Below the pieces are notes generated by a model, which saw only the letters and a program-made list of their open reading frames with translations, did not search any database and had not been told where the DNA came from. Below are positions 6,011 to 53,607 of a stretch of 64,000 bases of DNA, in pieces. Origin of the DNA: Rhodovastum atsumiense. GTDB taxonomy: Bacteria; Pseudomonadota; Alphaproteobacteria; Acetobacterales; Acetobacteraceae. The DNA is taken from contig NZ_OW485601.1 in NCBI RefSeq assembly GCF_937425535.1, positions 5,501,501-5,565,500 of the forward strand. Direction: 5' to 3'. How positions within the stretch are numbered: position 1 is the stretch's first letter; the number at the start of each line of letters is the position of its first letter. A program made the position numbers and the translations under genes.

Positions 6011-6194
6011 AGGAAAGGCAAGGGCTTTGCCCTTGACTCACGTCGTGCGCAGGCACGCCATCCCGTAACGGGCCACAAGGCCCTTGGATCCCATTCTCGC
6101 TGCGCGGCACAGAGTCCTGGGTTCCAAGGGTGAAGCCCTTGGCGGAGGTCCAGGAGGCGGAGCCTCCTGGTCGGGTGCGGGGCAAAGCCCCGCC
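6011..6194 (+). repeat. Composite hairpin repeat, copy A
   Basis: A block of successive inverted repeats follows the MFS stop codon: CAAGGGCTTTGCCCTTG, a CAAGG...CCTTG hairpin, a conserved CGCTGCGCGGCA core, CCAAGGG...CCCTTGG, CCAGGAGGCGGAGCCTCCTGG, and GCGGGGCAAAGCCCCGC. Four other copies occur in this window, each beginning directly after a gene and in the same sense as that gene. It may act as a strong multi-hairpin terminator or 3'-end stabiliser. Open frames through it are not believable genes. Confidence 0.85.
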
Positions 6195-6328
6195 AAAAGG
6201 CGTATCCGGGCATCGTCTTCGTTGCGTTCCAAAAGATAGCAACGACTTCGTTTTCATCACGTGTGAAATCGCAAAACCGATGCCCTGGTCAGCCGGTTTC
6301 CCGCGATCGGATGTCGTCACCGAATCTC

Positions 6329-6347
6329 TTGACATATGTCATATGTC
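6329..6347 (+). promoter_or_regulatory. Candidate promoter/operator of the sialate-type operon
   Basis: A perfect -35 hexamer TTGACA (6329-6334) runs into GACATATGTC and a tandem repeat ATATGTC-ATATGTC (6334-6347). No convincing -10 is visible. Related TATGTC repeats lie upstream of the GntR gene about 2.4 kb away. E. coli NanR binds tandem hexamers, so this could be the operator of the NanR-like regulator encoded downstream. Confidence 0.45.
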
Positions 6348-6465
6348 GGCGCACGGTTCGTTGCGGGTGCCACTGTTCGAGATGCAGGCGGGTGCCGTGC
6401 GAATGGCTTGCCGGCATCCTGGGGCTGCGGCCCTGCCATGCCGGCCATCACCAGGGAGGTGAGGG

Positions 6466-7284
6466 ATGACCGACATCTTTTCGGTCAAAGATAAGGTAAT
6501 CGTGGTGACCGGAGGGCTCGGCCAGCTTGGCTCGCAGTTCTCGCAATGGCTCGCCTCGCAGGGGGCGCGGGTGGCGATCTACAGCCGCCGGCCGTTCAGC
6601 GCGGAGCAGACCGAAGCGAAGTTCCCGGGGCTCGGGAAGCGGATCGTCGTCTACCACGCGAGCGTCCAGGACAAGGACGCGCTGGAAGCCGCGACCCGGC
6701 AACTGGTGGCCGAGTGGGGCACGCCGCACGTGCTCATCAACAACGCCGGGATCGATTCCAAGCCATCCGGCTCGGCCGACCAGAACGGCCCGTTCGAGAC
6801 CTATCCCCGCAAGTACTGGGACGAGGTGATCGACGTCAACCTGACCGGCGTCATGCAATGCTGCCAGGTGATCGGCTCGCGGATGGCCGGGCAAGGTCGT
6901 GGCAGCATCATCAATGTCGGTTCGATGTACGGCATGGTCTCTCCCAACCAGGCGCTCTATGCCTATCGGGAGAAGCGGGACGGCGTACCGTTCTTCAAGG
7001 CGGTTCCGTATGCGGCCTCGAAGGCCGGATTGCTGAACCTGACACGCTATTTGGCCACGTACTGGGCGCCGAAGAATGTCCGGGTGAACACCGTGACCTT
7101 CGGCGGCGTGAAGACGGCGAATTTCGACAAGGAATTCATCGAGGCCTTCCTGCAGCGCGTGCCGCTCGGCCGCCAGGCGGAAATCGACGAGTTCAATGGC
7201 GTCGTGCAGTTCCTGGCCTCCGACGCCTCCACGTACATGACGGGCTCCAACGTGGTGGTGGATGGCGGGTTCACCGCCTGGTAG
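6466..7284 (+). CDS. Short-chain dehydrogenase/reductase
   Basis: A 272-residue classical SDR. It shows the NAD(P) motif TGGLGQLG (15-22), NNAG (92-95), the catalytic serine near 153 and Y182-x3-K186, and ends with the usual DGGFTAW. A strong GGGAGGTGAGGG precedes the ATG. It begins a same-strand group with an MFS transporter, a NanR-like regulator and a NanA-like aldolase, so its substrate is probably a sugar acid, sialic acid derivative or breakdown product. SDR genes of similar appearance occur in nonulosonate (legionaminate/pseudaminate) loci, but here the neighbours point to catabolism. Exact substrate unknown. Confidence 0.85.
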   Translation: MTDIFSVKDKVIVVTGGLGQLGSQFSQWLASQGARVAIYSRRPFSAEQTEAKFPGLGKRIVVYHASVQDKDALEAATRQLVAEWGTPHVLINNAGIDSKPSGSADQNGPFETYPRKYWDEVIDVNLTGVMQCCQVIGSRMAGQGRGSIINVGSMYGMVSPNQALYAYREKRDGVPFFKAVPYAASKAGLLNLTRYLATYWAPKNVRVNTVTFGGVKTANFDKEFIEAFLQRVPLGRQAEIDEFNGVVQFLASDASTYMTGSNVVVDGGFTAW

Positions 7285-7332
7285 CCCGTCGCGCCTGACC
7301 AACCAACACAACGACGAAGTCGGACAAGACAG

Positions 7333-8670: not shown

Positions 8671-8778
8671 GTGGCGACAGCGCGCGCACCCATGCCGCGT
8701 TGTCATGCCGGGCGGCGGAACCCTCGCGCCGCCCGGCGCTGCGGCTCTTTTCGTGACGCTTGCCACGATGACCGCCAA

Positions 8779-8812
8779 TATGTCCGCTGGTATGTCCGCT
8801 CCTGTGTCCTTT
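8779..8812. promoter_or_regulatory. Tandem TATGTCCGCT repeats upstream of the GntR gene
   Basis: TATGTCCGCT occurs at 8779-8788 and exactly again at 8791-8800, with a weaker TGTGTCCTTT at 8803-8812, giving a 12-base period. The TATGTC core matches the repeats at 6334-6347. In-phase direct repeats are the form used by NanR-type regulators, so these may be autoregulatory sites. Confidence 0.4.
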
Positions 8813-8908
8813 GGAGGCCGGCATGGCCTGGACGGGGCGCGAGCGGAACGGCATGCGGAAGGTGGGAATGGTGGGATCGGACCCGGTGGTGGATCGCGGA
8901 GCGGCGGC

Positions 8909-9736: not shown

Positions 9737-9818
9737 CCCCGCCGGGGGGCGCCGCCCTGCCGCCGCGCTTCCACCGGACTGCGAAGAGAGGACGGGCGAT
9801 GGTGCCCGGTCATGTCCC

Positions 9819-11138: not shown

Positions 11139-11297
11139 GGCGGGGTTTCACCCCGCACCCGACCAGGGCTTTGCCCTGGACCGACCAAGGGCTTTGCCCT
11201 TGGAACCCGGTTTTTCTGTGCCGCGCAGCGCGAATGGGATCCAAGGGCCTTGTGGCCCTTGGCGGGTCAAGGGCGGAGCCCTTGCCTTACTTTCTTA
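11139..11297 (-). repeat. Composite hairpin repeat, copy B
   Basis: Same element as copy A but inverted in the window, because the gene it follows (lpxB) is on the minus strand; it begins two bases after the lpxB stop. Read with lpxB it gives CAAGGGCTCCGCCCTTG, CAAGGGCCACAAGGCCCTTG, the CGCTGCGCGGCA core, CAAGGGCAAAGCCCTTGG, CCAGGGCAAAGCCCTGG and GCGGGGTGAAACCCCGC. Confidence 0.85.
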
Positions 11298-11299: not shown

Positions 11300-12466
11300 T
11301 CAGTGCCCATCCAGCACGGCCAGCACTTCCCGCGCCGCGGCTTCCGAAGGCAGGCCGACGGGTGGTGCCAGATGCTGTACTACGGTGCGGAAGGCGGCGC
11401 GCTGGGCCTCGGCGGCGGCACGGTCGTTCAGCAGGTTTTCCACGGTTTCGGCCAGCCGGGCCGGGGTGCAGTCCTGCTGCAGCAATTCGGGCACCACTTC
11501 GCGTCCGGCCAGCAGGTTCACCATGGCGACGTGCGGCACCCGGATCAGGTGCCGGGCGATCACAGCCGTGACCGGGTTCACCCGGTAGGTGACGGCCATC
11601 GGCACGCCGGCCAGGGCCAGTTCCAGCGTCGAGGTGCCGGATTTGGTCAGGGCGACCGAGGCCGCGGCATAGGCGTCGTGCTTGTCGGCAAGCTCCGTGA
11701 CCACGAGCGGCTGCACGGGCCAGTTGGCTGTCGCCTGATGCACCGTCTCGGCCACGGCGGAGGCGACCGGCACCACCGGCACCAGGCCCGGCACGCGCCC
11801 GGCCAGCAGCCCGAGCGTGCGCCCGAACACCGGCAGCAGGCGCGGCACTTCGCTGCGGCGGCTGCCGGGCATCAGCACCAGCACGGGCGCGTCCGCCCCC
11901 AGCCCGTGGGCGGCGCGGAACCGGGCGGCATTGCCATGGTCCGTGCCCGATTGCAGCACCGGGTGGCCGACGAAGGAGGCCGGCAGGCCGTGGCCGGCGA
12001 AGAAGCCGGGCTCGAAGGGCAGCAGGCAGAGCAGCCTTTCCCACAGGCCGGGGTAATGCCGGACCCGCTTCTCGCGCCAGGCCCAGACCTGGGGGGCGAC
12101 GTAATGCACGCGCGGAATGCCGGCACCGGCCACGCGGCGCAGCAGGCGCAGGGTGAAGCCGGGGCTGTCGATGGTTACCAGTACGCCCGGTCGCTGCCGG
12201 CGCACGTCCTCGGCGGTGTGTTTCAGCAGGCGGCTGAGGCGGCGCAGGCGCGGCAGTACCTCGATCAGCCCCATCACCGCCAGTTCCTGCATCGGGAACA
12301 GCGGCACCAGGCCCTGTTCGGCCATGCGTGGCCCGCCGACGCCGGCAAAGCGCAGCCCTGGCCGCAGGTCGCGCAGGGCGGCCATCAGCCGGGCACCGAG
12401 CACATCGCCGCTTTGTTCACCGGCAACGAGATAGATCAGGGGGTCAGGAGGAACATCCGCGCTCAT
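11300..12466 (-). CDS. lpxB: Lipid-A-disaccharide synthase
   Basis: A 388-residue GT19 glycosyltransferase. It joins UDP-2,3-diacylglucosamine to lipid X at the inner face of the cytoplasmic membrane, the fifth committed step of lipid A synthesis. Seen motifs are AGEQSGDVLGARL at the N-terminus, GVGGPRM, ELAVMGLIEVLP, VTIDSPGFTLRLL, YVAPQVWAWR, LPFEPGFF, FVGHPV, LMPGSRRSEV and the late TKSGTSTLELAL. The length is normal for the family. It stands alone here without lpxA/lpxD/fabZ. Repeat copy B lies immediately behind its stop. Confidence 0.95.
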   Translation of the reverse strand: MSADVPPDPLIYLVAGEQSGDVLGARLMAALRDLRPGLRFAGVGGPRMAEQGLVPLFPMQELAVMGLIEVLPRLRRLSRLLKHTAEDVRRQRPGVLVTIDSPGFTLRLLRRVAGAGIPRVHYVAPQVWAWREKRVRHYPGLWERLLCLLPFEPGFFAGHGLPASFVGHPVLQSGTDHGNAARFRAAHGLGADAPVLVLMPGSRRSEVPRLLPVFGRTLGLLAGRVPGLVPVVPVASAVAETVHQATANWPVQPLVVTELADKHDAYAAASVALTKSGTSTLELALAGVPMAVTYRVNPVTAVIARHLIRVPHVAMVNLLAGREVVPELLQQDCTPARLAETVENLLNDRAAAEAQRAAFRTVVQHLAPPVGLPSEAAAREVLAVLDGH

Positions 12467-25471: not shown

Positions 25472-25603
25472 ATGACAGGGGCTGCGCTTGTCTCGGCCCT
25501 GGCGCTGCCGGGGGCGCGTCCGGCCCGGGCGGCGCTGCCCGAGCATCCGCGCTGGCGGCTGGTGTTCGTCAATCACGTCATGCACGGGAAGGAAGCAGGA
25601 TGA
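25472..25603 (+). pseudogene. Remnant of a periplasmic sugar-binding protein (ABC system)
   Basis: A 43-codon frame encodes a signal peptide-like start (MTGAALVSALALPGARPARA) followed by ALPEHPRWRLVFVNHV, which resembles the mature N-terminus of sugar ABC binding proteins (RWKFVFVNHV type). It then jumps to an unrelated MHGKEAG and stops. The stop overlaps the next start (ATGA). A deletion appears to have joined the beginning of the binding-protein gene to the tail of another gene of the operon. The identification rests on a short match. Confidence 0.5.
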
Positions 25604-26158
25604 ACGTGCCATCCCGGCCTGCCGCATTGAGCGCGGAGAACGTCACCAAACGCTTCGGTCCGCTGGCCGGCGTGTCGCTGCACGTCGCCGCCGGCGAGAT
25701 CCTTGGCATCCTCGGCGACAACGGCGCCGGCAAGTCGACACTGGTCAAGATCCTCACCGGCTACCAGCCGCCCGGCAGCGGTCGCCTGTTCGTCTACGGC
25801 GAGGAAGTCGCGCTACGCTCGGTGGATCATGCCCGTGCCCTCGGCATCGAATGCGTCTACCAGAACCTTGCCTTGGTCGATGGGCTGAGCGTCGCCCATA
25901 ACCTGTTCCTGAACCGGGAAATATGGGGGGCGCGAATCCGCGCTGATCCTCGACCTGATCCGGCGCCTGCGCGCCAAAGGCGAGCCGGCGATCGTGATGA
26001 TCATGTACAACGACGCGCAGACGCTCGAGATCGCCGACCGGATCATGTTGGTGCAGCGCGGCACTGTCACCTACGAGCGGGGCGCGCAGGAAACCTCGGT
26101 GGAGGAACTGCTGAGCGTGGTGCGGCGGGAATATCAGGCCTTGCGGGCGGGGGTGTAG
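25600..26158 (+). pseudogene. Sugar ABC transporter ATP-binding protein, internally deleted and frameshifted
   Basis: From ATG 25600 (AAGGAAG upstream) the frame encodes a good ABC N-terminus: GILGDNGAGKSTL (Walker A), then the Q-loop VYQNLALVDGLSVAHNLFLNRE. Near 25925-25931 the frame shifts by one, and the continuation in the other frame reads ESALILDLIRRLRAKGE...MYNDAQTLEIADRIMLVQRGTVTYERG up to TAG 26156. The signature LSGGQ and Walker B, about 80-90 residues, are missing, and the H-loop histidine is replaced (MYND). It is related to FrcA/RbsA-type single-domain ATPases for ribose, fructose or similar sugars. It cannot hydrolyse ATP. Confidence 0.8.
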
Positions 26159-26160: not shown

Positions 26161-26315
26161 GGCGGGGTTTCACCCCGCACCCGACCAGGAGGCTTCGCCT
26201 CCTGGACCTCCACCAAGGGCTTCGCCCTTGGATCCCATTCCTTGCCGCGCAGCGAGACTGGGGTGCAGGGGCCGTGTGGCCCCTGCCGGGTCCAGGGCAG
26301 CGCCCTGGCCTTTTC
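26161..26315 (-). repeat. Composite hairpin repeat, copy C
   Basis: Belongs to the minus-strand gpt gene, whose stop it touches. Read with gpt it gives CCAGGGCGCTGCCCTGG, CAGGGGCCACACGGCCCCTG, the CGCTGCGCGGCA core, CCAAGGGCGAAGCCCTTGG, CCAGGAGGCGAAGCCTCCTGG and GCGGGGTGAAACCCCGC. Its far end lies two bases from the ABC pseudogene stop. Confidence 0.85.
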
Positions 26316-26813
26316 TTAGCTCGCCTGCTTCTCCCGCTTGGCCAACGGCACCGCGAATTGCGGCTCGGTGTCCCAGGGGAACAGGATCCAGGTGTTCTGG
26401 CTGACCTCGGTGATGAAGGTGTCAACCAGTTGCTTGCCCGCCGGCTTGGCATAGACCGTGGCGAAATGTGCCTTGGGCAGCAGCGAGCGCACCACGCGGG
26501 CGGTGGTGCCGGTATCGACCAGGTCGTCGATCAGCAGGAAGCCTTCCCCGTCTCCCGCCGCCACCGGCGGCTTCAGCACCTGTGGCGCGCCGATTTCGGT
26601 CTCGCCTGCGGCGCCGCGGCCATAGGTGACAACCGAGACGGTTTCCACCAGCCGCGCTTCCAGTTCGCGCGCGATGATGGCCGCGGGGATCAGGCCGCCG
26701 CGCGTGATTGCAACGATCCCGTTGAAAGGGCCGAGATCGATCAACCGCCACGCGAGCGCGCGCGCGTCGCGGTGCAACTGATCCCACGTCACCGTGTAGT
26801 AATGGGCCGGCAT
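26316..26813 (-). CDS. gpt: Xanthine-guanine phosphoribosyltransferase
   Basis: A 165-residue type I PRTase. The order matches E. coli Gpt: [37 protein letters not shown], the PRPP loop [35 protein letters not shown] and TWILFPWD near the end. It salvages guanine and xanthine with PRPP at the inner membrane face. The ATG shares one base with the csaA stop (TGATG), so translation is coupled. Longer upstream frame parts are shadows. Confidence 0.93.
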
Positions 26814-42850: not shown

Positions 42851-44782
42851 ATGATCCTTTGGCTCCGGACGGCCTTGCGCCCGGTCCTGCTTGTTCTGCT
42901 GCTCGTCGCCCCGGCCAGGGCCCAGGAGATGGCAACGCCGCAGGAACCGCCGGTCACGGCCGGCACGATCGTCCCCCCATCGCCGAAGCACGTCGCGCAT
43001 GTGCGGGTCGACCGCGCGGTGACGGTGTTCACGGTCAACGCCGACGGCACCTATACCGAAACTGCCGAGCTGGACCACACGCTGCTGACCCAGCGTGGCG
43101 TTGCCCAGCGCGATCGTGCCGCGGTCACTTTCTATTCCCGGTCGCAGCGTCTCGAGGTGCTGGAGGCCTGGGTCGACCAGCCCGACGGCACCCGCCTGCC
43201 GGTCGGGCCTGAAGGCCGTTTCACCCGTCCCTCCGCGGCCAGCCAGGGGGCCCCCGGCTTCACCGGCAGCCAGACCACCACCGTGGTGTTCCCGCAGGTG
43301 CGGCCCGGCAGCCGCACTCACATCAAGTACCGGCGCATCCAGACCACCCCACCGCTGCTGGGCTTCAACGCCTGGTCGGAAGGCGAGCTGGAGAATGCCG
43401 CCGTCGAGGACCGCCTCGTCATCGACGCCCCGGCCGGGTTGCCCCTGTACTGGAAAAGCCGCGGCAGCGTCACTGTCACCGAGACCAGTGAAGCCGGGCG
43501 CCGCCGCATCGAGGCGGTGATTGCCCCGTCATCCGGCCAGGCCCCCGAACGCGACGCCGTGGCCAGCAGCGATTTCCAGCCGATCTTCCTGGCCAGCACG
43601 CTCCCCGACCTCGCCAGTCTCGGCGCCATCTATTACCGCCAGAGCCAGGAGCGGGCGGTGGTCACGCCGGAAATCGCGACGCTGGCCGCGCGCATCGTCG
43701 GCGAGCGCACCGGGCTGGACGCGGCGCGCGCCATCTACGACTGGGTCAGCGTCAACATCCGCTACGTCGCCGTCTATCTGAACCCAGATGACGGCTGGGT
43801 GCCGCACGAGGCCGCCGAGGTGCTCAGGAACGGCTACGGCGACTGCAAGGACCACACGGTGCTGATGCAGACCCTGCTGGCCGCCCGCGGCATCGTCGGC
43901 CAGGCGGCGCTGATCCACTGGGGCAATCGCTACAACGACCTGCCGCTCGCCCATCCCTTCCAGTTCAACCACGCCATCATCTACCTGCCCGACTACGACC
44001 TGTTCCTCAATCCAACCAATCCGTATGCGCCGTTCGGCTCGCTGGATCGCACGCTGTCCGGCAAGACCGTGGTGATCGCCACCGGCACCGGCCGGGTGTT
44101 GAGGACCCCTGCCTCGACGCCGGCCAGTTATCGGTACGCGATCGCCAGCCGCGTCGGCATCGACGACGAGGGCAATATCGACGGCAGCGCCGGCTACGTC
44201 CTTTCGCCCAACGTGGATACCGGGTTCCGCTCCTGGCTGGCCAATGCCAGTTCCCCCCGCGACCTGGCGGAACGCCTGCTACTCGGCACCCCCGAAGGCG
44301 GCTTCGGCAGCCTGCAGGCGAGCGACCCGCGCGATCTCGGCACGCCGCTGGCGGTGACCGCGACCTGGCGCAGCCCGCACGGTGTCACCTTCCGTGACGG
44401 CGCCGCCGCCATCACCATCCCGGCCGGGCCTGATATCAAGCCGGTCTATGGATTGCGCCGCTACCTCTCGGCCAGCGGCAGCCGCCACACGCCGATGCTG
44501 GTGGGCGCCACCGATCTCAGTTGGACCACCACCATCAGCCTGCCGGCCGGACTGACCGCCACCACGCTGCCGGCGCCGGTGACGGTGCGGACCCCGGCCG
44601 GACACTATACCGCCCGCTACGAACGCGCCGGCGCCCAGGTGCTGGTCCAGCGCAACCTCGTCATCGCCCAGGACGTGTTCCAGCCGGCAGAGTACCCGGA
44701 CCTTGAGCGCCTGCTGTACGCGGCCCTCGATGACGCCCGGGCGACGATGACGCTCGCGCGCGCGGAAGTGGGGATCCGGTAG
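42851..44782 (+). CDS. Secreted DUF3857 / transglutaminase-like protein
   Basis: A 643-residue protein from ATG 42851 with a signal peptide (LRTALRPVLLVLLLVAPARA). Residues 40-260 are a DUF3857 beta domain. The transglutaminase-like core follows at about 265-400: IYDWVSVNIRYVAVY, NGYGDCKDHTVLM with the cysteine at 332, and FNHAIIY with the histidine at 374. The third position is FLNPTNPY, Asn where most relatives have Asp. The C-terminal part is beta-rich. Family members are periplasmic and poorly understood; peptide-bond cleavage or cross-linking is assumed. Repeat copy D follows its stop. Confidence 0.85.
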   Translation: MILWLRTALRPVLLVLLLVAPARAQEMATPQEPPVTAGTIVPPSPKHVAHVRVDRAVTVFTVNADGTYTETAELDHTLLTQRGVAQRDRAAVTFYSRSQRLEVLEAWVDQPDGTRLPVGPEGRFTRPSAASQGAPGFTGSQTTTVVFPQVRPGSRTHIKYRRIQTTPPLLGFNAWSEGELENAAVEDRLVIDAPAGLPLYWKSRGSVTVTETSEAGRRRIEAVIAPSSGQAPERDAVASSDFQPIFLASTLPDLASLGAIYYRQSQERAVVTPEIATLAARIVGERTGLDAARAIYDWVSVNIRYVAVYLNPDDGWVPHEAAEVLRNGYGDCKDHTVLMQTLLAARGIVGQAALIHWGNRYNDLPLAHPFQFNHAIIYLPDYDLFLNPTNPYAPFGSLDRTLSGKTVVIATGTGRVLRTPASTPASYRYAIASRVGIDDEGNIDGSAGYVLSPNVDTGFRSWLANASSPRDLAERLLLGTPEGGFGSLQASDPRDLGTPLAVTATWRSPHGVTFRDGAAAITIPAGPDIKPVYGLRRYLSASGSRHTPMLVGATDLSWTTTISLPAGLTATTLPAPVTVRTPAGHYTARYERAGAQVLVQRNLVIAQDVFQPAEYPDLERLLYAALDDARATMTLARAEVGIR

Positions 44783-44790
44783 GTCGGGTT

Positions 44791-44951
44791 AAGAAAGGCC
44801 AGGGCTTTGCCCTGGACCCAGCAGGGGTCAGGAGACCCCTGCACCCCTATCGCGCTGCGCGGCAGAAAGTTTGGGTTCCAAGGGCTTTGCCCTTGGTGGA
44901 GGTCCAGGAGGCGAAGCCTCTGGCGGGATCGGGCCGCGAAGCGGACCGATG
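44791..44951 (+). repeat. Composite hairpin repeat, copy D (last hairpin diverged)
   Basis: Starts nine bases after the DUF3857 gene stop: CCAGGGCTTTGCCCTGG, CAGGGGTC...GACCCCTG-like hairpin, the CGCTGCGCGGCA core, CCAAGGGCTTTGCCCTTGG, CCAGGAGGCGAAGCCTC with a shortened arm. The terminal GCGGGGC...GCCCCGC hairpin is replaced by CGGGCCGCGAAGCGGACCG, suggesting decay or recombination. Confidence 0.8.
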
Positions 44952-44964
44952 GCAGCGCCCCGCT

Positions 44965-46746
44965 TCAGCGCAATTCCGGGACGCGGTCCAGCAGGGCCGC
45001 CGTCAGTTCCTCCCGGCGTTCCCACAGCGAGCGGTACCAGGCGTGGCGGCGCGAAGCCTGGGCCGCGAGCATGCGCCGGCGTGCCACCATGGCGCGGGCG
45101 GAATCGGCCAGGGTGCGGCCTTGCGAGGGCGTCGCCAGCAGGTGCAGCAGGCATTTCTGCAGATCGGCGGCATCCTGGACCAGCAATCCGGTGCGGCCAT
45201 CCTCGATGCTGTCGGCATACACGGTGGGCGTGGCGATGGCGGTCACGCGGTGGGCTGCCGCCTCGATGAATTTAAGATCTGATTTGCAACGATTAAAGGC
45301 GTTGTCACGCAGCGGCATGAACGAAAGTTCCGACTGCGACAGCAGGTCCAGGTAGGTGTCGTAGTTGCAGAGGGGCGTGAAGGTCTTGTGCGGCGTCTGC
45401 AGGGCATCGAACAGGCCCCGGTCGGCCAGGATGCGGAACTGCAGGCGCTCCCCGGCGAGGGCCGCGGCCGCGTTCAGCCCTGGCAGGAACTGTGGCCATT
45501 CCTCTTCCCGGTTGATGCCTGCGAAGAACAGGGTCAGCCGGTTCGGATCGGTGTAGTTGCGCACAGCGGGCAGTCGCGCGATGGCGTTCGGGAACACCGC
45601 CACTTCGGGATTGTGGCTTCGCAGCACCGCGGCCAGGGGGTCGGTGGAGGTCTGCACCGCGTGCACGCCGCGGAAGCTGAGGATCGACTCGTGCTGCATG
45701 GCGGGCAGGAAGTCGGGGTGATCGTCGAACTCGCACAGCACCAGCCAGCCTTCGGCGATCAGGGAGCGCAGTGTCGCAAGCCCTGTCTCGCCGGCCAACA
45801 CCGGGCGATGGAAGATGAAGATACGTGCCGAATCGGCATCATCCCCTTTTGGGGTCGGGGCGCCCGGGGCGAGCACCTCGGTGGTCACCCCGGGGATGGA
45901 CGTCAGCGCCTGCAACGGCTGCGTCACGCGCACATGGCTGACGCCGCCGACATGCTCGAGCATGGTCGAGCAGACATGCAGCGGTGCCGGAACACGCCGT
46001 GCCGCGCGCCAGACATGTTGCAGGGGCTGGGCGCGCTCGCGATAGGCCGTTACGTCGATGCCCAGTGCCACCAGGGCGGGGGCGGCGTCGCGCACGAATT
46101 CCTCACTGGCGGCGGCATCGAAGATGCGCGGCGCGACCTCGACCGGCAGCAGCCCGGCGCCAAGCACCGCCCGGCGCGTCGCCGCGCGGGTAAACCAGCG
46201 CAGATGGGTGCGGTCGAACAGCCCGGTTTCCTCGTAGTCCCAGGTGCCGCGCAGCAGGCGTTCGACGAAGCTCCAGTGCTCGGCGTTGGGCATGCAGATC
46301 AGCACGACCCCATCGGGGCTCAGGGCCTCGGCCTGGCGGGTGAGCACCGACCACGGATCACGCAGATGCTCGAGCACATCGCCATAGATGATGCAGTCGA
46401 ACGGTCCGGTGCCGAACGGGAAGGGATCCGCCTCGACATCGCCGATGGCGACCTGGTCGAGTCGGGTCGCGGCGAGCCGGGCCGCATCCACGTCCAACTC
46501 GATGCCAAGAAAGCGGCAGGCCGGATTGCGGCGCTTGTACTCGGCCCCGAGCGCCCCGGTGGCGCAACCGACATCGAGCACGGCGCGGGCATCGAGGGGA
46601 ATACGGTCGAGCAGGTCGGGATTTGGCACATCGGGATACGGCAGCATGAAGGTGTGATGCCTGCTTGGCAGGAAACGAGCAAGAGCAGTCAGGCCGGCCA
46701 CCGCCTCTTCTCTGTCCTTTCTTGCCGGATGTTGCGATTCAGACAT
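44965..46746 (-). CDS. Methyltransferase-glycosyltransferase fusion
   Basis: A 593-residue protein. Residues 30-220 are a class I SAM methyltransferase: VLDVGCATGALG at 56-67, GIELDVDAARLAA, IIYGDVLEHLRDP, LICMPNAEHW. Residues 250-580 look like a GT-B fold: LEHVGGVSHVRVTQPLQAL, IFIFHRPVLAG, VCEFDDHPD-like segment, RLTLFFAGINREEEWPQFLP, a donor-side ELSFMPLRDNAFNRCKSDLKFIEAAAHRV and GRTGLLVQDAADL. It probably builds a methylated glycan. The nearest same-strand upstream genes are fliI-fliJ, so flagellin glycosylation is one possibility. Confidence 0.82.
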   Translation of the reverse strand: MSESQHPARKDREEAVAGLTALARFLPSRHHTFMLPYPDVPNPDLLDRIPLDARAVLDVGCATGALGAEYKRRNPACRFLGIELDVDAARLAATRLDQVAIGDVEADPFPFGTGPFDCIIYGDVLEHLRDPWSVLTRQAEALSPDGVVLICMPNAEHWSFVERLLRGTWDYEETGLFDRTHLRWFTRAATRRAVLGAGLLPVEVAPRIFDAAASEEFVRDAAPALVALGIDVTAYRERAQPLQHVWRAARRVPAPLHVCSTMLEHVGGVSHVRVTQPLQALTSIPGVTTEVLAPGAPTPKGDDADSARIFIFHRPVLAGETGLATLRSLIAEGWLVLCEFDDHPDFLPAMQHESILSFRGVHAVQTSTDPLAAVLRSHNPEVAVFPNAIARLPAVRNYTDPNRLTLFFAGINREEEWPQFLPGLNAAAALAGERLQFRILADRGLFDALQTPHKTFTPLCNYDTYLDLLSQSELSFMPLRDNAFNRCKSDLKFIEAAAHRVTAIATPTVYADSIEDGRTGLLVQDAADLQKCLLHLLATPSQGRTLADSARAMVARRRMLAAQASRRHAWYRSLWERREELTAALLDRVPELR

Positions 46747-46808
46747 CTTTCGTGGCAGAATATTTTACTATGGATCCAAATTCCGGCGCGATGCGCGCCC
46801 AGCGCCGA

Positions 46809-47234
46809 TCAAGGCCTTCGCGCGGAGCGGCTGGCGGCTTCGTCCATCGCGGCCTGGGCGCGTCGGGCCGCCTTGATGGCGTGGTGCGCATCATGCACGG
46901 CCAGCAGGCGCTCGGCCGCTTCGGCGTTGGTCCGGGCCATGGCGAGCGCGCTGCGTGCCTCGGCGGTGGCGGCACCGGCGCGCTGGTGCGAATCGTCCGC
47001 CTGTGCCCTTGCCCGCAGGCCATGCGGCAGCCAGGCGGCGAAAGCCTCCGCCATGGCATCGTCGGCGCCCGGCGCGGCGGCGGCTGCCCGTTCGCGGACG
47101 ATCCCGCCTTCCGCGGCCGCGAGGGCGGCGCGGGTGGCGTCTTCTTCCTGCAGGCGGGTGGCGAGCGTCCGGCGCGCATCTTCACAGGCCAGGCGCCGCA
47201 GCCGCAGCAGGGTCAGCATCACGGCGCGGTTCAT
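46809..47234 (-). CDS. fliJ: FliJ-like flagellar export chaperone
   Basis: A 141-residue, nearly all-helical protein rich in Ala, Arg and Glu (LLRLRRLACEDARRTLATRLQEEDATRAALAAAEGGIVRERA), forming a long coiled coil as FliJ does. Sequence identity in this family is low, so the call rests mainly on the four-base ATGA overlap with fliI and on size. FliJ sits in the FliI hexamer and helps engage the export gate FlhA. Confidence 0.8.
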   Translation of the reverse strand: MNRAVMLTLLRLRRLACEDARRTLATRLQEEDATRAALAAAEGGIVRERAAAAAPGADDAMAEAFAAWLPHGLRARAQADDSHQRAGAATAEARSALAMARTNAEAAERLLAVHDAHHAIKAARRAQAAMDEAASRSARRP

Positions 47235-48610
47235 GACACGGGCGCTTCGAGCGCGGTGCGCAACTGCGCGAAGCTGTCGGCCAGGCCGGTCCGCTCGTCG
47301 CGGCCCTGGCGCAGCAGCGCCTCGATGCGCGGCGCCACCGCGATGGCCTCGTCCACCGCCGGATCCGTCCCCGCGCGATAGGCACCGAGTCGCACCAGAT
47401 CAGCCATGTCGGCGTGCAGCTTCAGGATCGCGCGGGCCCGCCGGGTGAGGGCGTTCTCCTCGGCGCCGTTGCATCCAGGCACCGCCCGCGACAGCGAACG
47501 CAGCACGTCCACCGCCGGATAGCGTCCGCCCTCGGCGATGCGGCGGTCGAGGATGACATGGCCATCGAGGATGCCGCGCACCGCATCGGCCACCGGCTCG
47601 TCATGGTCGTCCCCTTCGACCAGCACCGTGAACAGTCCGGTGATATGGCCGGCGGAACGGCCGGGGATGTCAGGTCCGGGGCCGGCACGTTCCAGCAGGC
47701 GGGGCAACTCGGCGAAGACGCTGGGCGGAAAGCCGCGGGTGGCCGGCGGCTCGCCGGCGGACAGGCCGATCTCGCGCAGCGCCAGGCAGAACCGGGTGAC
47801 GCTGTCCATCAGCAGCAGCACGCTCTTGCCCTGGTCACGGAAATGCTCGGCGACCGTCATGGCGGTGTGGGCGGCCTCGCGGCGCAGCAGCGGCGGCGTA
47901 TCGGACGTCGCCACCACCACCACGGCCCGGGCGAGTCCCTGCCGGCCCAGGTCGTCCTCGATGAACTCGCGCACTTCCCGTCCGCGCTCGCCGACCAGGG
48001 CCAGCACCGCCACGTCGCAGGCGGTGTGGCGGGCGAGCATGGCGAGCAGTGTCGATTTGCCGACGCCGGAGGCGGCGAACAGCCCCAGCCGCTGGCCGCG
48101 GCGGCAGGTGGTGAAGGCATTGAGCACGCGCACGCCGAGATCGAGCCGCTCGCCCAGCCGGGCCCGCCGGGTCGCGTCCGGCGGCGCGGCGCGAACCGGG
48201 CGAGGGGCGGGGCCGCGCGCCAGCTTGCCGCGCCCGTCGAGTGGCCGCCCGAGCGGATCGATGACGCGGCCGATCCAACTGTCGTCGACGGCGAGGGTCG
48301 GCCCAGGCGGCGCATCGGGATGCGGGATGGCGCCACGCGCGGCGGCGCCCGGGCCCAGGCCATCGGCCGGGCCATAGGTCATGGCCTGCGCCAGCCCGCC
48401 GCGGAAGCCGACGATTTCCGCCGCCACCTGCCGGCCGTTGCGGCTGGAGAGGGAAAGGCGATCCCCGACCGAGAGATGGTGCGACAGGCCGCCGATCTCC
48501 ACGGCCAGGCCGGAGACACCGACGATGCGCCCTTCCATGCAGGTGGGAGGGATGTCGTGCAGCGCGGCCAGGGCGCTGGCGCTGCGCTGGGCGAGGGAGG
48601 CGCGTCTCAT
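47231..48610 (-). CDS. fliI: Flagellum-specific ATPase
   Basis: A 459-residue type III export ATPase. An N-terminal beta-barrel (VGDRLSL) is followed by the catalytic core: GRVIDPLGRPLDG, Walker A FAASGVGKSTLLAMLAR, VGERGREVREFIEDDL, LLLMDSVTRFCLALREIGLSAGEPPATRGFPPSVFAELPRLLERAG, and ILDGHVILDRRIAEGGRYPAVDVL. The ERGREV and RGFPPSVF segments separate it from F1-beta. It powers unfolding and export of flagellar subunits. Divergent from ctrA, which in alphaproteobacteria controls flagellar genes. Confidence 0.95.
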   Translation of the reverse strand: MRRASLAQRSASALAALHDIPPTCMEGRIVGVSGLAVEIGGLSHHLSVGDRLSLSSRNGRQVAAEIVGFRGGLAQAMTYGPADGLGPGAAARGAIPHPDAPPGPTLAVDDSWIGRVIDPLGRPLDGRGKLARGPAPRPVRAAPPDATRRARLGERLDLGVRVLNAFTTCRRGQRLGLFAASGVGKSTLLAMLARHTACDVAVLALVGERGREVREFIEDDLGRQGLARAVVVVATSDTPPLLRREAAHTAMTVAEHFRDQGKSVLLLMDSVTRFCLALREIGLSAGEPPATRGFPPSVFAELPRLLERAGPGPDIPGRSAGHITGLFTVLVEGDDHDEPVADAVRGILDGHVILDRRIAEGGRYPAVDVLRSLSRAVPGCNGAEENALTRRARAILKLHADMADLVRLGAYRAGTDPAVDEAIAVAPRIEALLRQGRDERTGLADSFAQLRTALEAPVS

Positions 48611-48780
48611 TTTTCGATCTTTGTTTCCTGAAATTTTCTCGCACGCGTGGAACGAGGCGAATTCGCCTTCCGTTCCGTCTCGAATTTTATTTTTACACCA
48701 TTAAGGTTAGGAATTCGTGGCGAAATGCACGCCTGGGTGGTATACGGTTCGCAACCATGGATGGATAAAGGGTTTCAACA

Positions 48781-49617
48781 ATGCGCGTCCTGCTGGTTGA
48801 AGACGACATCACCACAGCCCGTGGCCTGAGTCTGATGCTCCGCTCCGGCGGGGCGGTTGTGGACCATGCCGATACCGGCGAGGAAGGGCTCGAGCTCGCC
48901 CGCCACTACGACTACGACATCCTCGTGCTCGATCTGATGCTGCCGGACATGGAAGGCTACGAGGTGGTCCGTCGTCTGCGGGCGGCGCGGGTCGACGTTC
49001 CGGTGCTGATCCTGTCCGGCCTGACGCGGCCGCAGGCCAAGGTGAAGGGCCTGGCACTCGGGGCCGACGACTTCCTGACCAAGCCCTTCGACCAGGGCGA
49101 GCTGATCGCCCGTGTCCAGGCGATCGTCCGGCGCAGCAAGGGGTTCAGCCAGCCCTCGCTGCAGCTTGGCAACCTGCAGCTCAATCTCGACAGCCGCGAG
49201 GTGCGGGTCGGTGGCCTGCCGGTGCATCTGACCGGCAAGGAATACGCGATCCTTGAATTGATGGTGCTGCGCAAGGGCATGGTCCTGACCAAGGAGGCCT
49301 TCCTGAACCATCTCTATGGCGGCATGGACGAGCCGGAGATGAAGATCATCGACGTCTTCATCTGCAAGCTGCGCAAGAAGCTGGCTTTGGCCGGTGCCGA
49401 CAACCTGATCGGCACGGTATGGGGGCGGGGCTACATGATCCGCGAGCCATCCCCGCTGGAAACGGCGCTCACGCCGGCGCCCCTGCCGCCGACGCGCCTG
49501 TCCGCGCCGTTGCCGCATGCCCCGTCGCCGCATGCCCCGGTGCAACGTTCCCAGATGGCCGATGCGCCGGCGCCTTATGCCGCGTCCGGCCGGCAGGCCG
49601 CGCTCAGCGCGGCCTGA
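48781..49617 (+). CDS. ctrA: Response regulator CtrA with C-terminal extension
   Basis: A 278-residue OmpR/PhoB-type regulator. The receiver (1-120) has the acidic pair E7-D8-D9, phosphoacceptor D51 in LVLDLMLPD and [28 protein letters not shown]. The winged helix (125-230) contains [52 protein letters not shown] and [10 protein letters not shown], which is diagnostic for CtrA. The last 45 residues are a low-complexity Pro/Ala tail, longer than in Caulobacter CtrA. In Rhodospirillales CtrA mainly controls motility; AAGGG precedes the start and fliI is divergent. Confidence 0.95.
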
Positions 49618-49635
49618 ACTCCCGTGCGGGACTCG

Positions 49636-51312
49636 TTACGCGGTGCAGCCTTCTTCGCGCAGCAGGGCGACGACGGCCTCGGTGGCGACGTCCCGTTCGG
49701 TGAAGGCCCGGCCGATGCCGCGGGCCAGCACGAAGGTCAGTCTGCCGTCGCGCATCTTCTTGTCGCGCCGCATGTGGCTGACCAACGTTTCCGCCGACAG
49801 ACGCCGGTTGAGCTGGTGCAGCTCCGCCGGCAATCCCACCGCCGCGACATGCCTGACCACGCGTTCGGCATCCTCGCCGCTGCACAGCCCCAGCCGTGCC
49901 GACAGGCGGAAGGCGAGCCCGAGGCCGATCGCCACCGCTTCCCCGTGCAGCAGCGTGCCGTAGCCGAGCTCGGCCTCCAGCGCGTGGCCGAAGGTGTGGC
50001 CGAGATTGAGCAGGGCGCGGCCGTCGTTCGGCTTTTCCTCGCGCTCGTCGTCGCCGACCACCTGGGCCTTGAAGGCACAGGCGCGCATCACCGCATCGGC
50101 CTGCGCCGCGCGGTTGCCGCCGACCACCGCGCCGCCGTGCTGCTCGCACCAGGCGAAGAACGCGGCATCGCCGATCAGGCCGGCCTTGACGATCTCCGCA
50201 TAGCCCGCGCGCAGCTCGCGCAGCGGCAGCGTCGCCAGCGCGCCGGTGTCGGCCAGCACCATGTGCGGCTGGTGAAAGGCACCCAGCAGGTTCTTGCCGT
50301 GGCGGGTGTTGATGCCGGTCTTGCCGCCTACCGAGGAATCGACCTGGGACAGCAACGTGGTCGGCACCTGCACGAAGGGCAGGCCGCGCAGCGTGGTCGC
50401 CGCGGCGAAGCCCGCGAGGTCGCCCACCACGCCGCCGCCGAGGGCGATCACCGCGCTGCGCCGCTCGATGCCGCCTTCCAGCAACTGGTCCACCACCGTC
50501 TCGTAGGTGGCGAGCTTCTTCGAGGTCTCGCCGGGCGGCACGGTGATCGTGCGGCTTTCGAAGGCGCAGGCCTCCAGCCCGCGCAGCAGCGCCGGCAAAT
50601 GCAACGGCGCCACCGTGGCGTCCGTCACCACAACGGCCCGTTTCTGCGGCAGCACCGGGGCCAGCAACGCGCCGGCACGTTCGATCAGGCCCTCGCCAAC
50701 CACCACGTCGTAGCTGGCCGAGGACAGCGCCAGCGACAGCCGCCGCGGCGGACGGTGGGCCAGCAGCGCGTCCAGCACCTGGGTAGTGGTCGCGTCCGGG
50801 CTGTCGTCGCCGCAATCGACGATGATATCGGCCTCGGCATAGATCGGGTGCCGGGCAACCATCAGCCGCTCGAGCACCTGCGCGGGGTCATCCCCGTTCA
50901 GCAGCGGCCGGTGCGTGCGGCCCGCGACCCGGCGCAGCAGGGTGGGAAGCCGGCAGCGCAGCCAGATGCTGACCGCGTCCCGCCGCATCGTCGCGCGCGT
51001 CTCGGCATCCATGAACGCGCCGCCGCCGGTCGCCAGCACGATCTGATCGCCCGCCAGCAGACGCCGGATCACCCGCCGCTCGCCGTCACGGAATTCCCGC
51101 TCGCCGAAACGGGTGAACAGCTCGGCGATGGTGCAGCCGGCGGCCAGCTCGATTTCGGCATCCGCGTCGCGGAACGGCAGGCCGAGTCGGGCGGCCAGGC
51201 GTCGCCCGATCGAGGTCTTCCCGGCCCCCATCAACCCGACCAGAACGATGCTGCGACCGTCCAGCCAGTCCGGCAGAGACCAGCCTTCCTTTAAAGCAGT
51301 GTTGCCTCTCAT
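49636..51312 (-). CDS. aroKB: Bifunctional shikimate kinase / 3-dehydroquinate synthase
   Basis: One uninterrupted 558-residue frame from ATG 51312 holds two shikimate-pathway enzymes. Residues 20-180 are shikimate kinase: P-loop GLMGAGKTS (26-34), DADAEIE, ATGGGAFMD, GRTHRPLL. Residues 190-555 are dehydroquinate synthase: VVVTDATVAPLH, ETSKKLATYETVVDQLLEGGIERRSAVIALGGGVVGDLAGFAAATTLRGLPFVQVPTTLLSQVDSSVGGKTGINTRHGKNLLGAFHQP in outline, GYAEIVKAGLI, LNLGHTFGHALEAE, HGEAVAIGL. They are separate adjacent genes in most proteobacteria. No internal start with a ribosome site was obvious at the junction. Confidence 0.95.
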   Translation of the reverse strand: MRGNTALKEGWSLPDWLDGRSIVLVGLMGAGKTSIGRRLAARLGLPFRDADAEIELAAGCTIAELFTRFGEREFRDGERRVIRRLLAGDQIVLATGGGAFMDAETRATMRRDAVSIWLRCRLPTLLRRVAGRTHRPLLNGDDPAQVLERLMVARHPIYAEADIIVDCGDDSPDATTTQVLDALLAHRPPRRLSLALSSASYDVVVGEGLIERAGALLAPVLPQKRAVVVTDATVAPLHLPALLRGLEACAFESRTITVPPGETSKKLATYETVVDQLLEGGIERRSAVIALGGGVVGDLAGFAAATTLRGLPFVQVPTTLLSQVDSSVGGKTGINTRHGKNLLGAFHQPHMVLADTGALATLPLRELRAGYAEIVKAGLIGDAAFFAWCEQHGGAVVGGNRAAQADAVMRACAFKAQVVGDDEREEKPNDGRALLNLGHTFGHALEAELGYGTLLHGEAVAIGLGLAFRLSARLGLCSGEDAERVVRHVAAVGLPAELHQLNRRLSAETLVSHMRRDKKMRDGRLTFVLARGIGRAFTERDVATEAVVALLREEGCTA

Positions 51313-51385
51313 GGGCAGCGAGGCTAGCACACCGCCCGCCGGGGCCAAACGTCGCCCCCGGTTTTCCATGCAGGTCGGACAGTCC

Positions 51386-51535
51386 ATGAGCCGCGTCTTC
51401 CTCATTGTCGTGCTGGTCGGGGCCGTCCTGTTCGGCGCGGCGTTGCTCACCCTGGGGGCCTTCCCGCCCACGCCGGTGGCCAAGCAGATCCAGAAAGTGT
51501 TGCCGAACGATCGTTTCGCCCCGCGCGGCGGCTGA
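51386..51535 (+). CDS. Small single-pass membrane protein
   Basis: A 49-residue peptide: an N-terminal membrane helix (VFLIVVLVGAVLFGAALLTLGAF) then a short soluble tail PPTPVAKQIQKVLPNDRFAP. ATG 51386 gives the cleanest product; ATG 51369 adds six residues. The ribosome site is weak. It lies three bases before xerD and is divergent from aroKB, so it is probably the first gene of that transcript. I have seen similar short peptides at this spot in related genomes but know no function. Confidence 0.6.
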   Translation: MSRVFLIVVLVGAVLFGAALLTLGAFPPTPVAKQIQKVLPNDRFAPRGG

Positions 51536-51538
51536 GCC

Positions 51539-52459
51539 ATGGACAGGCATCTCGAGGCCTTCCTGGAGATGCTGCTGGCCGAGCGCGGGGCCGCCGCCAA
51601 CACGGTGGCGGCCTATCGTTCCGACTTGCTCGATGCCGCCGGCTTCGCCGCACGGCGTGGCGAGGCCCTGGTCGCTGCCGGGCCGGAGCTGCTGCGCGCC
51701 TATCTTTCGTGGCTTGCCGCCAGCGGGCTGTCCGCCCGCTCGGCGGCGCGCCGTCTCTCGGCGCTGCGGCAGTTCTACCGGTTCCTGCTGCGCGACGGTC
51801 TGCGCGCCGATGATCCCACCAGTCTGCTCGACAGCCCGAAGCAGCCCAGCCCCCTGCCGAAATTCCTGACCGAGGCGGAGGTCGACGCCTTGCTTGCCGC
51901 CGCTGCCGGGCGCGAGGGTCGGCAGGCGCTGGTGATGACCGCGGCGCTGGAGATCCTGTATGCCACCGGGCTGCGCGTTTCGGAGCTGCTGGCGCTGCCG
52001 CGTGCGGCGCTGTCCGGTGATGCCACGGTGCTGCTGGTGCGCGGCAAGGGCGGCCGCGAGCGGCTGGTGCCGCTGTCCGATGCCGCCCGTGACGCCGCCG
52101 CTGCACTGATCGCCGCGGAAGGGGGCGTCCGGAAAGGTGGAAAGGGGGGATGGCTGTTCCCCGGCCGCGATCCCCGCCGTGCGCTGACCCGGCAGGGTTT
52201 CGCGCAGATTCTCAAGCAGGTGGCGCTGGATGCCGGCCTGGATCCGGAACGGGTCTCGCCGCACGTGCTGCGCCATTCCTTCGCCAGCCACATGCTTGCC
52301 CGCGGCGCCGACCTGCGCAGCTTGCAGATGCTGCTCGGTCACGCCGATATCGCCACGACCGAAATTTATACCCACGTGCTGGCCGAGCGGCTGCAGCGCC
52401 TGGTGGAAGCGCACCACCCGCTCGCCCGGCGGGCCGAGGGCGCGTCCGCCGGGGGCTGA
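51539..52459 (+). CDS. xerD: Tyrosine recombinase XerD
   Basis: A 306-residue site-specific recombinase. The N-terminal SAM-like core-binding domain (1-105) is followed by the catalytic domain with Arg in YATGLRVSELLAL, Lys in RGKGGRERLVPL, HVLRHSFASHMLARGADLRSLQMLLGH and the nucleophile Tyr in ATTEIYTHV. Resolves chromosome dimers at dif with XerC at FtsK-active septa. XerC is the alternative; the context between aroKB and accA and the TTEIYTHV form favour XerD. Confidence 0.93.
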   Translation: MDRHLEAFLEMLLAERGAAANTVAAYRSDLLDAAGFAARRGEALVAAGPELLRAYLSWLAASGLSARSAARRLSALRQFYRFLLRDGLRADDPTSLLDSPKQPSPLPKFLTEAEVDALLAAAAGREGRQALVMTAALEILYATGLRVSELLALPRAALSGDATVLLVRGKGGRERLVPLSDAARDAAAALIAAEGGVRKGGKGGWLFPGRDPRRALTRQGFAQILKQVALDAGLDPERVSPHVLRHSFASHMLARGADLRSLQMLLGHADIATTEIYTHVLAERLQRLVEAHHPLARRAEGASAGG

Positions 52460-52491
52460 CCTGCCGTTCCGCAGGTGTTAAAGGGCCGCTC

Positions 52492-53448
52492 ATGCGCCAT
52501 TTCCTGGATTTCGAGAAGCCGATCGCCGAGCTCGAGAGCAAGATCGAAGAGCTGCGGAAGATGTCGGAGGCCGAGGGCCTCAACATCGCCGAGGAGGTCG
52601 GCAAGCTGACCGAGAAAGCCGACCGTCAGCTGCGCGCCACCTATGCGAAGCTGACGCCCTGGCAGAAGACGCAGGTCGCCCGCCATCCCGACCGGCCGAA
52701 GGCGAATGATTACATCGCCTCGCTGATCACCGACTGGACGCCGCTGGCCGGCGACCGCGCCTTTGCCGAGGACCGGGCGGTGCTCGGCGGGCTCGGGCGG
52801 TTCCGCGGCCGTTCGGTGATGGTGCTCGGCACCGAGAAGGGGTCCGACACCGAGAGCCGTGTCGCGCATAATTTCGGCATGGCCCGGCCCGAGGGCTACC
52901 GCAAGGCACGCCGGCTGATGCAGTTGGCCGGCCGCTTCGGCCTGCCGGTGCTGACCTTCGTCGACACCGCCGGCGCCTTCCCCGGCATCGAGGCGGAAGC
53001 CCGCGGCCAGGCCGAGGCGATCGCCCGGTCGATCGAGGCCTGCCTGGAAGCGCCGGTGCCGGTGGTCGCGACCATCATCGGCGAAGGCGGCTCGGGCGGG
53101 GCGATCGCGCTCGCCGCGGGCGATGCCGTGCTGATGCTGGAGCATTCCATCTACTCGGTCATTTCGCCGGAAGGCTGCGCCGCGATCCTGTGGAAGGACG
53201 CGGCCCAGGCCTCCGTCGCCGCCGAGGCGCTCAAGCTGACCGCCGAGGACCTGCGGCGGCTGAAGCTGATCGACACGGTCGTGCCCGAACCGCTGGGCGG
53301 CGCTCATCGCGATCCGGCCGCGGCGATCACCGCGGTGGGCAATGCGGTGCAGGCGGCGCTGACGCCGTTGCTGGCGCTGGAGCCGGCGGCACTCCAGGCG
53401 AAGCGGCGGGAGAAGTTCCTGGAAATGGGACGGGAACTGCCGGCCTAA
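52492..53448 (+). CDS. accA: Acetyl-CoA carboxylase carboxyltransferase subunit alpha
   Basis: A 318-residue AccA. It starts at ATG 52492 with AAGGG seven bases upstream; the same frame open further upstream is inside xerD. Marks are MRHFLDFEKPIAELESKIEELR, WQKTQVARHPDRP, GTEKGSDTESRVAHNFGMARPEGYRKARRLM, FVDTAGAFPGIEAEARGQAEAIARS, IIGEGGSGGAIAL and SVISPEGCAAILWKD. Makes malonyl-CoA with AccD and biotinylated AccB. Repeat copy E begins with the base after its stop. Confidence 0.96.
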   Translation: MRHFLDFEKPIAELESKIEELRKMSEAEGLNIAEEVGKLTEKADRQLRATYAKLTPWQKTQVARHPDRPKANDYIASLITDWTPLAGDRAFAEDRAVLGGLGRFRGRSVMVLGTEKGSDTESRVAHNFGMARPEGYRKARRLMQLAGRFGLPVLTFVDTAGAFPGIEAEARGQAEAIARSIEACLEAPVPVVATIIGEGGSGGAIALAAGDAVLMLEHSIYSVISPEGCAAILWKDAAQASVAAEALKLTAEDLRRLKLIDTVVPEPLGGAHRDPAAAITAVGNAVQAALTPLLALEPAALQAKRREKFLEMGRELPA

Positions 53449-53607
53449 GGCAAGGCGAGGGCTCTGCCCTCGACCCGGCAGGGGCCACAAGGCCCCTGCA
53501 CCCCCATCGCGCTGCGCGGCAAAAGATATGGGATCCAAGGGCCTCTGGCCCTTGGTGGAGGTCCAGGAGGCAAAGCCTCCTGGTCGGGTTTGGGGCAAAG
53601 CCCCAAC
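53449..53607 (+). repeat. Composite hairpin repeat, copy E
   Basis: Begins directly after the accA stop: CGAGGGCTCTGCCCTCG, CAGGGGCCACAAGGCCCCTG, the CGCTGCGCGGCA core, CCAAGGGCCTCTGGCCCTTGG, CCAGGAGGCAAAGCCTCCTGG, TTGGGGCAAAGCCCCAA. Several arms carry paired changes compared with copies A-D (for example CAAGGG/CCCTTG against CGAGGG/CCCTCG), which keep the stems intact. Confidence 0.85.

Follow-up and report, generated by a model that had tools for sequence, protein, structure and literature searches.

A high-copy, probably REP/REPIN-like palindromic repeat at gene 3′ ends in Rhodovastum atsumiense and other Acetobacteraceae

Repetitive extragenic palindromes (REPs) of the GTAG/CGTC kind, in the available parts of Di Nocera et al. 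(2013, PMC3733652), lie mainly between convergent and unidirectional open reading frames (ORFs); less than 20 bp separates such a REP from either 3′ end when the ORFs converge, and when they are in tandem it lies close to the upstream one. In the accessible text of Bertels and Rainey (2011, PMC3116915), a REPIN is a pair of REPs in inverted order, and REPINs are tied to REP-associated tyrosine transposases (RAYTs). In E. coli, a REP whose distance to the stop codon is below 16 nt lowers translation, according to a study cited in the available part of PMC12306157. We analyzed a 64,000-nt stretch of the Rhodovastum atsumiense genome (RefSeq assembly GCF_937425535.1, contig NZ_OW485601.1, positions 5,501,501 to 5,565,500; hereafter the window), in which five copies of an element composed of several hairpins around an invariant core stand at the 3′ ends of genes. 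We conclude that this element is probably a high-copy, non-autonomous palindromic repeat of the REP, BIME (bacterial interspersed mosaic element) or REPIN kind, which accumulates at gene 3′ ends and supplies 3′-terminal hairpins once it is transcribed.

In the half unit of the element two small palindromes, S1 and S2, stand in a row, and ACC(C) comes after each of them. Full copies, made of S1, S2, the core CGCTGCGCGGCA, the inverted relatives S3 and S4, and then S5, are nearly palindromic, and for this reason the orientation of the element means little. All five copies reported in an initial annotation of the window were found where it had placed them (Table 1), with the order of hairpins shared by all five when each was aligned in its own orientation and with five mismatch-free occurrences of the core. 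Each begins 0-14 nt past a stop codon on its own strand, and the arms of the aligned copies vary in pairs (CAAGGG/CCCTTG, CCAGGG/CCCTGG, CGAGGG/CCCTCG), both as had been described. Across the genome the main variants of S1 are CCAGGGC, CAAGGGC and CGAGGGC, and S2 has a second main variant, CCAAGGGCC...GGCCCTTGG.

The genome consists of nine contigs, the first of which (C1) has 6,482,810 bases; R. atsumiense G2-11 has been described as having one 6.48 Mb chromosome and eight plasmids (PMC9938234, available part). The core has 201 exact matches in this genome, compared with 8 for a reversed-pattern control. At least five core matches at G000:C1:3357658-3359910 (G000 being the genome of the window) are spaced 558-561 bases apart and are probably a tandem repeat rather than copies of the element. 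We then scanned the genome with covariance models, as the initial annotation had proposed, using a left-half model built from 23 copies and a right-half model built from 19. The left-half model gave at least 150 matches of 80-101 bits (E < 1e-11), 149 on C1 and 1 on C2, and the right-half model also gave at least 150; since 150 of 150 scored candidates matched, 150 is a lower bound. The number of strong matches is thus far above chance. Gene context was studied for 146 of the 150 left-half matches, excluding the one on C2 and three on C1.

Among these 146 copies, 84 have S3 and S5, 5 have S3 without S5, 46 lack S3, and 11 carry a GTAG-type repeat and/or a displaced S3. Ungapped left halves comprise 116 distinct sequences among 137, with a mean pairwise identity of 0.87. 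The main variants of S1 and S2 occur in all six combinations, the rarest of them twice, and the copies are therefore a mosaic. The 85 doublets that could be parsed all have CCAAGGGC as S3, while their S2 is of the GCAG type in 41, the CCAA type in 35 and the CAAG type in 1, with 8 unparsed. Because the S2 and S3 arms are so often of different type, we rejected a long inverted-repeat hairpin as the maintained structure. The best two-arc split of the chromosome showed no strand bias (P = 0.45).

Placement was determined against genes called by codon usage with a caller trained on the window, for which starts are uncertain and stops less so. The 146 copies comprise 76 in convergent gaps, 42 in the sense of both neighbors, 22 antisense to both, 1 in a divergent gap and 5 with one neighbor in view; 1 copy lies inside a called gene and 8 partly overlap one. 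A stop codon lies within 35 nt of an edge of the element in 140 of the 146, which bears out the tie to gene 3′ ends proposed in the initial annotation, and the first hairpin begins no more than 15 nt past the stop in 91 of the 119 copies that have an upstream stop. Of the 42 sense copies, 41 have the upstream gene's stop at most 30 nt away from their left edge. All 18 antisense full copies have the stop of the opposing gene on their right, 3-34 nt from the edge, and in the four short antisense copies a stop lies 6-26 nt from the core. The constant feature is the stop codon, not the strand.

The initial annotation had held that the repeat always runs in the sense of its gene. Between co-directional genes, 56 of 64 copies are closer to the stop than to the start, and 22 of these 64 are antisense to both neighbors (sense to antisense 42:22, P = 0.017), with a ratio of 16:4 among singlets (P = 0.012) and 26:18 among full copies (P = 0.29). 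Strict gene-sense orientation was rejected on these 146 copies together with 90 copies from a congener described below; it is an attractive misreading that rested on five copies and is corrected here. Gap type gave a clear pattern: of the 141 copies with two neighbors, 76 are in convergent gaps and 1 is in a divergent gap, versus 35 convergent and 55 divergent among 265 element-free, non-overlapping gaps, a background drawn from the window and from stretches around elements, where absence of the element was judged by patterns.

In the congener G004 we examined 90 sites, among at least 149 listed matches (150 candidates scored), and found 23 convergent, 19 sense, 17 antisense, 9 divergent and 22 one-sided; the gene caller, having been trained on another genome, may have produced part of the 9 divergent cases in error. 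The sense to antisense ratio of 19:17 shows no clear preference (P = 0.87). Between these 90 sites and the 146 of the window genome, six gene 3′ ends are shared (protein identity of at least 60%), a lower bound since both site sets are incomplete. Orientation is the same at three of the six and opposite at the other three, and either independent insertion or loss of different doublet halves fits the opposite cases. A seventh site shares the gene start only, and four more homologous genes bear the element at different ends. By eye, the accA 3′ end carries the element in the window genome and in the relative G001, a truncated form in G002 and G004, and no visible element in G003, G005 and G006, while the lpxB 3′ end carries it in the window genome, with none seen in G001-G005 and no lpxB match in G006. 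Element occupancy differs between congeners. After the lpxB stop in G002 (locus L312) we observed an A/T-rich hairpin followed by CATTCGCGCTGCGCGGC, a near-core on an unrelated hairpin.

Of 60 relatives, 18 have matches, 18 of 36 within Acetobacteraceae and none of the 24 that belong to other families of the class. A family-wide draw, which carried out the scan of other Acetobacteraceae suggested in the initial annotation, found the element in 91 of 200 genomes and 52 of 102 genera. In an order-wide draw 49 of 150 genomes matched, where every match and every listed non-match belongs to Acetobacteraceae, so that this draw is uninformative on other families. In a phylum-wide draw, 22 of 299 genomes besides the window's own matched weakly (36-56 bits), none of them labeled as the same class; in these searches over more than 40 genomes stricter filters applied and weak matches were lost. 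Three such loci from other classes of the phylum (L315-L317), when read closely, have a similar hairpin pair joined by ACCC, a likeness that common descent, transfer or convergence could explain. A plasmid search returned a 51-base partial match on two Pseudomonas plasmids, one of them NZ_CP107550.1 (L318). We conclude that the close form of the element is, so far as seen here, confined to Acetobacteraceae.

The five window copies and the hairpins of copy 5 are given in Table 1. Copies 2, 3 and 4 lie in convergent gaps, so that each of them also follows a gene or frame of the opposite strand. The far end of copy 3 is 2 nt from the stop (26156-26158) of a plus-strand frame, and copy 4 ends 13 nt from the opposite-strand stop at 44965. 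Beside copy 3, positions 25600-26158 hold a plus-strand ABC ATPase-like sequence with a Walker A motif by eye, apparently in more than one frame, which is possibly a decayed gene. In the stretch 52150-53448 upstream of copy 5, the accA frame probably starts near 52492; the accA part and the stretch preceding it match separately in 4 of 6 relatives and form a single match containing a stop in the other 2, and the codon-usage gene call is consistent with this start. A hairpin of the form CGTCGTGCG...ACG interrupts or replaces part of a stem at window positions 6041-6070 and at C1:1142900, 3557906, 3742600 and 4928883. It begins with CGTC and may be a CGTC REP, although CGTC repeats were reported as missing in Acetobacteraceae in the available part of PMC3733652.

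Table 1. Copies of the repeat in the window, their gene settings, and the hairpins of copy 5
Feature	Position	Strand	Structure	Setting
Copy 1	6011..6194	+	full doublet plus extra CGTC-starting hairpin (6041-6070) between S1 and S2	MFS transporter gene (+, stop ending 5996) upstream; SDR gene (+) downstream; sense to both
Copy 1 core	6098-6109	+		
Copy 2	11139..11297	-	full doublet	after lpxB (-, stop at 11300); DHDPS-family gene (+, called end 10733) opposite; convergent, ~400 nt spare
Copy 2 core	11219-11230	-		
Copy 3	26161..26315	-	full doublet	after phosphoribosyltransferase-domain gene (-, stop at 26316); convergent gap filled
Copy 3 core	26243-26254	-		
Copy 4	44791..44951	+	doublet, right end altered	DUF3857/transglutaminase-like gene (+, stop ending 44782) versus methyltransferase/glycosyltransferase-domain gene (-, stop at 44965); convergent
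Copy 4 core	44853-44864	+		
Copy 5	53449..53607	+	full doublet	accA (+, stop ending 53448) upstream; epimerase-like gene (+) downstream; sense to both
Copy 5 S1	53456..53472	+	CGAGGGC-TCT-GCCCTCG hairpin	
Copy 5 S2	53478..53499	+	GCAGGGGCC-ACAA-GGCCCCTGC hairpin	
Copy 5 core	53510..53521	+	CGCTGCGCGGCA	
Copy 5 S3	53535..53555	+	CCAAGGGC...GCCCTTGG; read as inverted counterpart of S2	
Copy 5 S4	53563..53583	+	CCAGGAGGC...GCCTCCTGG; read as inverted counterpart of S1	
Copy 5 S5	53590..53606	+	TTGGGGC-AAA-GCCCCAA; right edge in full copies	

In the mechanism that we propose, copies would be spread by a mobilizing enzyme and would survive where they do least harm, that is, in the short gaps past stop codons and above all the convergent gaps in which they are observed. 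Copies in such gaps would presumably be transcribed from one or both sides, and their hairpins could then form a stable mRNA 3′ end that blocks 3′-5′ exonucleases after Rho-dependent or weak intrinsic termination. Where no more than ~15 nt lies between stop and hairpin, ribosomes might in addition be impeded as they terminate, an effect described for E. coli REPs. Palindromes yield the same hairpins on both strands, so the element could act in either orientation.

Which enzyme could move the element was considered through the Y1_Tnp domain. The genome has one Y1_Tnp match, a RAYT-like gene scoring 24.7 bits against a cut-off of 23, and its 3.3 kb locus (L193, G000:C1:3802768-3806061) has GTAG-type repeats on both sides. 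These repeats, of the form GTAGGGCGGATAAGCG...ATCCGCC, also occur inside copies of the element at C1:916442 and C1:1272689, and GTAG repeats of this type follow the core in 10 of the 146 copies. L193 is apparently a separate, classical GTAG REP system. RAYT mobilization of the element is not supported, given that the sole RAYT-like gene lies among GTAG repeats and that 5 of 9 element-bearing relatives have no Y1_Tnp match. In two of the four relatives with a match (L319 and L322) an S1-like hairpin was observed in the locus of the RAYT-like gene, on one side only, and this counts against rejecting RAYT mobilization.

Several points weigh against the interpretation of the element as a mobile, REP-like repeat that supplies mRNA 3′ ends. 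None of the element's hairpin patterns occurs in the 3.3 kb of the RAYT-like locus, and among the nine element-bearing relatives four have one Y1_Tnp match and five have none. No mobilizing enzyme was found in a search limited to Y1_Tnp. The congeners offered no close, recent empty site, and for this reason insertion itself and target duplication were not seen, nor was an excision. Additionally, when the element is subtracted from its convergent gap a median of 19 nt is left, compared with 22 nt in element-free convergent gaps (n = 37, P = 0.18); in this comparison, copies that contain inserted repeats or lack a recognized S5 kept their right part in the count, which inflates some of the leftover gaps. 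The leftover matches the norm of a compact genome, and the flush fit is therefore not evidence of targeting. The choice of gap, not flushness, is what is special, and selection against damage upstream of genes explains that choice as well as targeting would. Finally, we infer every RNA-level step of the mechanism from sequence; strand-specific RNA-seq has been described for R. atsumiense G2-11 (PMC9938234, available part).

It could be suggested that the element is instead a selected composite terminator, one that halts RNA polymerase by its hairpins and T-rich tail and whose copies are retained for ending transcription. As such a role would have it, half of the 76 convergent pairs have at most 19 nt between their two stops once the element is set aside. 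On the opposite strand, a T-rich tail (at least 5 T in 8) follows S1 in 54 of 146 copies, compared with 18, 6 and 10 of 146 in controls taken from flanks 12, 20 and 30 nt out and given the same CCTT start, and G004 shows the same excess (32 of 90 versus 8, 6 and 6). In the sense of the element itself, however, a T-rich tail is present in 0 of 84 copies after S5 and in 2 of 46 singlets after the core. Nor is the opposite-strand tail in the window genome commoner where it would serve a gene (sense 18/42, convergent 27/76, antisense 7/22), whereas in G004 convergent copies lead (14/23, with sense 6/19 and antisense 4/17). A generic terminator scan of 44700-54000 gave 3 terminator-like sites where 3.5 were expected. 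A single one of the 3 falls in a copy, copy 4, where it is S1 on the minus strand (44815-44799). Most sites are, moreover, not common to G004. We take the opposite-strand tail to belong to the end of the element itself, where it could make weak terminators of some copies, and we regard selection as a terminator as unlikely.

A bolder proposal gives the repeat a larger role. A tag-less family moved by a non-RAYT enzyme could have taken over mRNA 3′-end formation for considerably more than 100 genes per genome in much of Acetobacteraceae, serving both strands alike because its unit is palindromic, and doubling as a landing site for repeats of the GTAG/CGTC type. We put this forward as speculation with a low probability.

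The initial annotation took the paired variation of the arms to mean that an RNA structure is conserved, and one could accordingly see the element as a structured 3′-UTR (untranslated region) module for regulation or stability, with RNA structure selected in one orientation. That the structure is conserved and that stems change pairwise stood up well. In 137 copies the stems contain 2183 Watson-Crick pairs, 3 G-U, 5 A-C and 1 other; in the 23-copy alignment (21 distinct sequences) 399 of 399 cells pair, with a percentage paired and a covariation score that were not reached in 500 shuffles. RNA folding z-scores, for copies 2 and 5, which were the copies folded, are -5.3 to -6.0, and the singlets in tandem gaps lean toward the sense direction. 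The claim for the RNA level did not stand. Selection on RNA should tolerate G-U above A-C, and no such excess was seen, eight cells making this a weak test. Two measures in the same alignment described as more robust to relatedness are not extreme, since the 4 pairs changed on both sides were reached by 21 of 500 shuffles and the 5 pair types by 495 of 500. Whole-pair changes, which nearly all of the changes are, fit RNA selection and turnover of DNA palindromes alike and do not separate them; amplification of a few master variants or DNA-level palindrome correction explains the stem data equally well. With no wobble excess and mixed shuffle results, we rejected RNA-specific covariation as proof. 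Full copies and the G004 sites show no clear orientation preference. Copy 2 folds into one long hairpin on either strand, and equally strongly on both. Folded as RNA, copy 5 forms separate S2, S3 and S4 hairpins with the S1 region paired to the S5 region, so not every doublet favors a long hairpin, and as DNA all of its hairpins are separate (z -8.6). Rfam 15 gave no match in the window at the gathering score, and at a looser threshold copies 5 and 2 had sub-threshold matches only, to miRNA and leader models, which we took as a chance product of long hairpins. We consider one-orientation RNA selection very unlikely.

That the element is a miniature inverted-repeat transposable element, descended from a conventional DDE insertion sequence and having terminal inverted repeats and a target duplication, is highly improbable in our judgment. 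In favor of it, the left and right halves are inverted relatives, and some inverted doublets of G004 (L167, L179) terminate in GGCCTT, which inverts the AAGGCC of the start. Against it, and only weakly, the right end in the window genome is formed by S5 and not by an inverted form of the left end.

We return to the REP-like repeat as the probable reading. If true, it would add a widespread repeat family to Acetobacteraceae, where data on REPs are thin, and would offer natural tests of whether palindromes without an adjoining RAYT can spread and whether stop-adjacent repeats shape mRNA ends. Our searches of the open-licence literature turned up no earlier description of this repeat in Acetobacteraceae. 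BIME, ERIC, BOX and RIME elements are modular intergenic mosaics of hairpins and are alike in this respect, from which the element presumably differs in sequence and in the order of its modules. Intrinsic (Rho-independent) terminators share a GC-rich hairpin past the stop, and about one third of the copies have a T-rich tail on the opposite strand; unlike them, the element lacks a tail in its sense direction, has several hairpins, and belongs to a repeat family whose sites shift.

The closest likeness is to REPs and REPINs. As with the GTAG/CGTC REPs of Di Nocera et al. (2013, PMC3733652, available part), this is a short, high-copy intergenic palindrome (201 cores, at least 150 model matches) found as singlets and inverted dimers, it favors convergent and unidirectional gaps near stops (76 convergent, 64 unidirectional, 1 divergent), and several families occur in one genome. 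The initial annotation had set the repeat apart from REP/BIME palindromes by a strict orientation to the gene; orientation is not strict, and the published placement of REPs is the same. It does differ from those REPs in that its left end carries neither GTAG nor CGTC and its halves are two palindromes linked by ACC(C). The tag is absent from the left edge among the 20 commonest five-base forms in the window genome and the 15 commonest in G004, which are mostly AAGG-like; the right edge was judged by eye in the listed copies. Compared with REPINs (PMC3116915, available part), the element likewise has an inverted doublet with a spacer (S3 in place in 89 of 146 copies, S5 too in 84), a capacity for a long hairpin, singlets beside doublets, and compensatory changes. 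A REPIN repeat adjoins its RAYT, whereas here the one RAYT-like gene stands among another repeat. The arms of the element also need not match, S3 being constant and S2 of several types. Since the element departs from REPs and REPINs in the GTAG/CGTC tag and the RAYT and is otherwise like them, we place it as a variant of the REP/REPIN kind.

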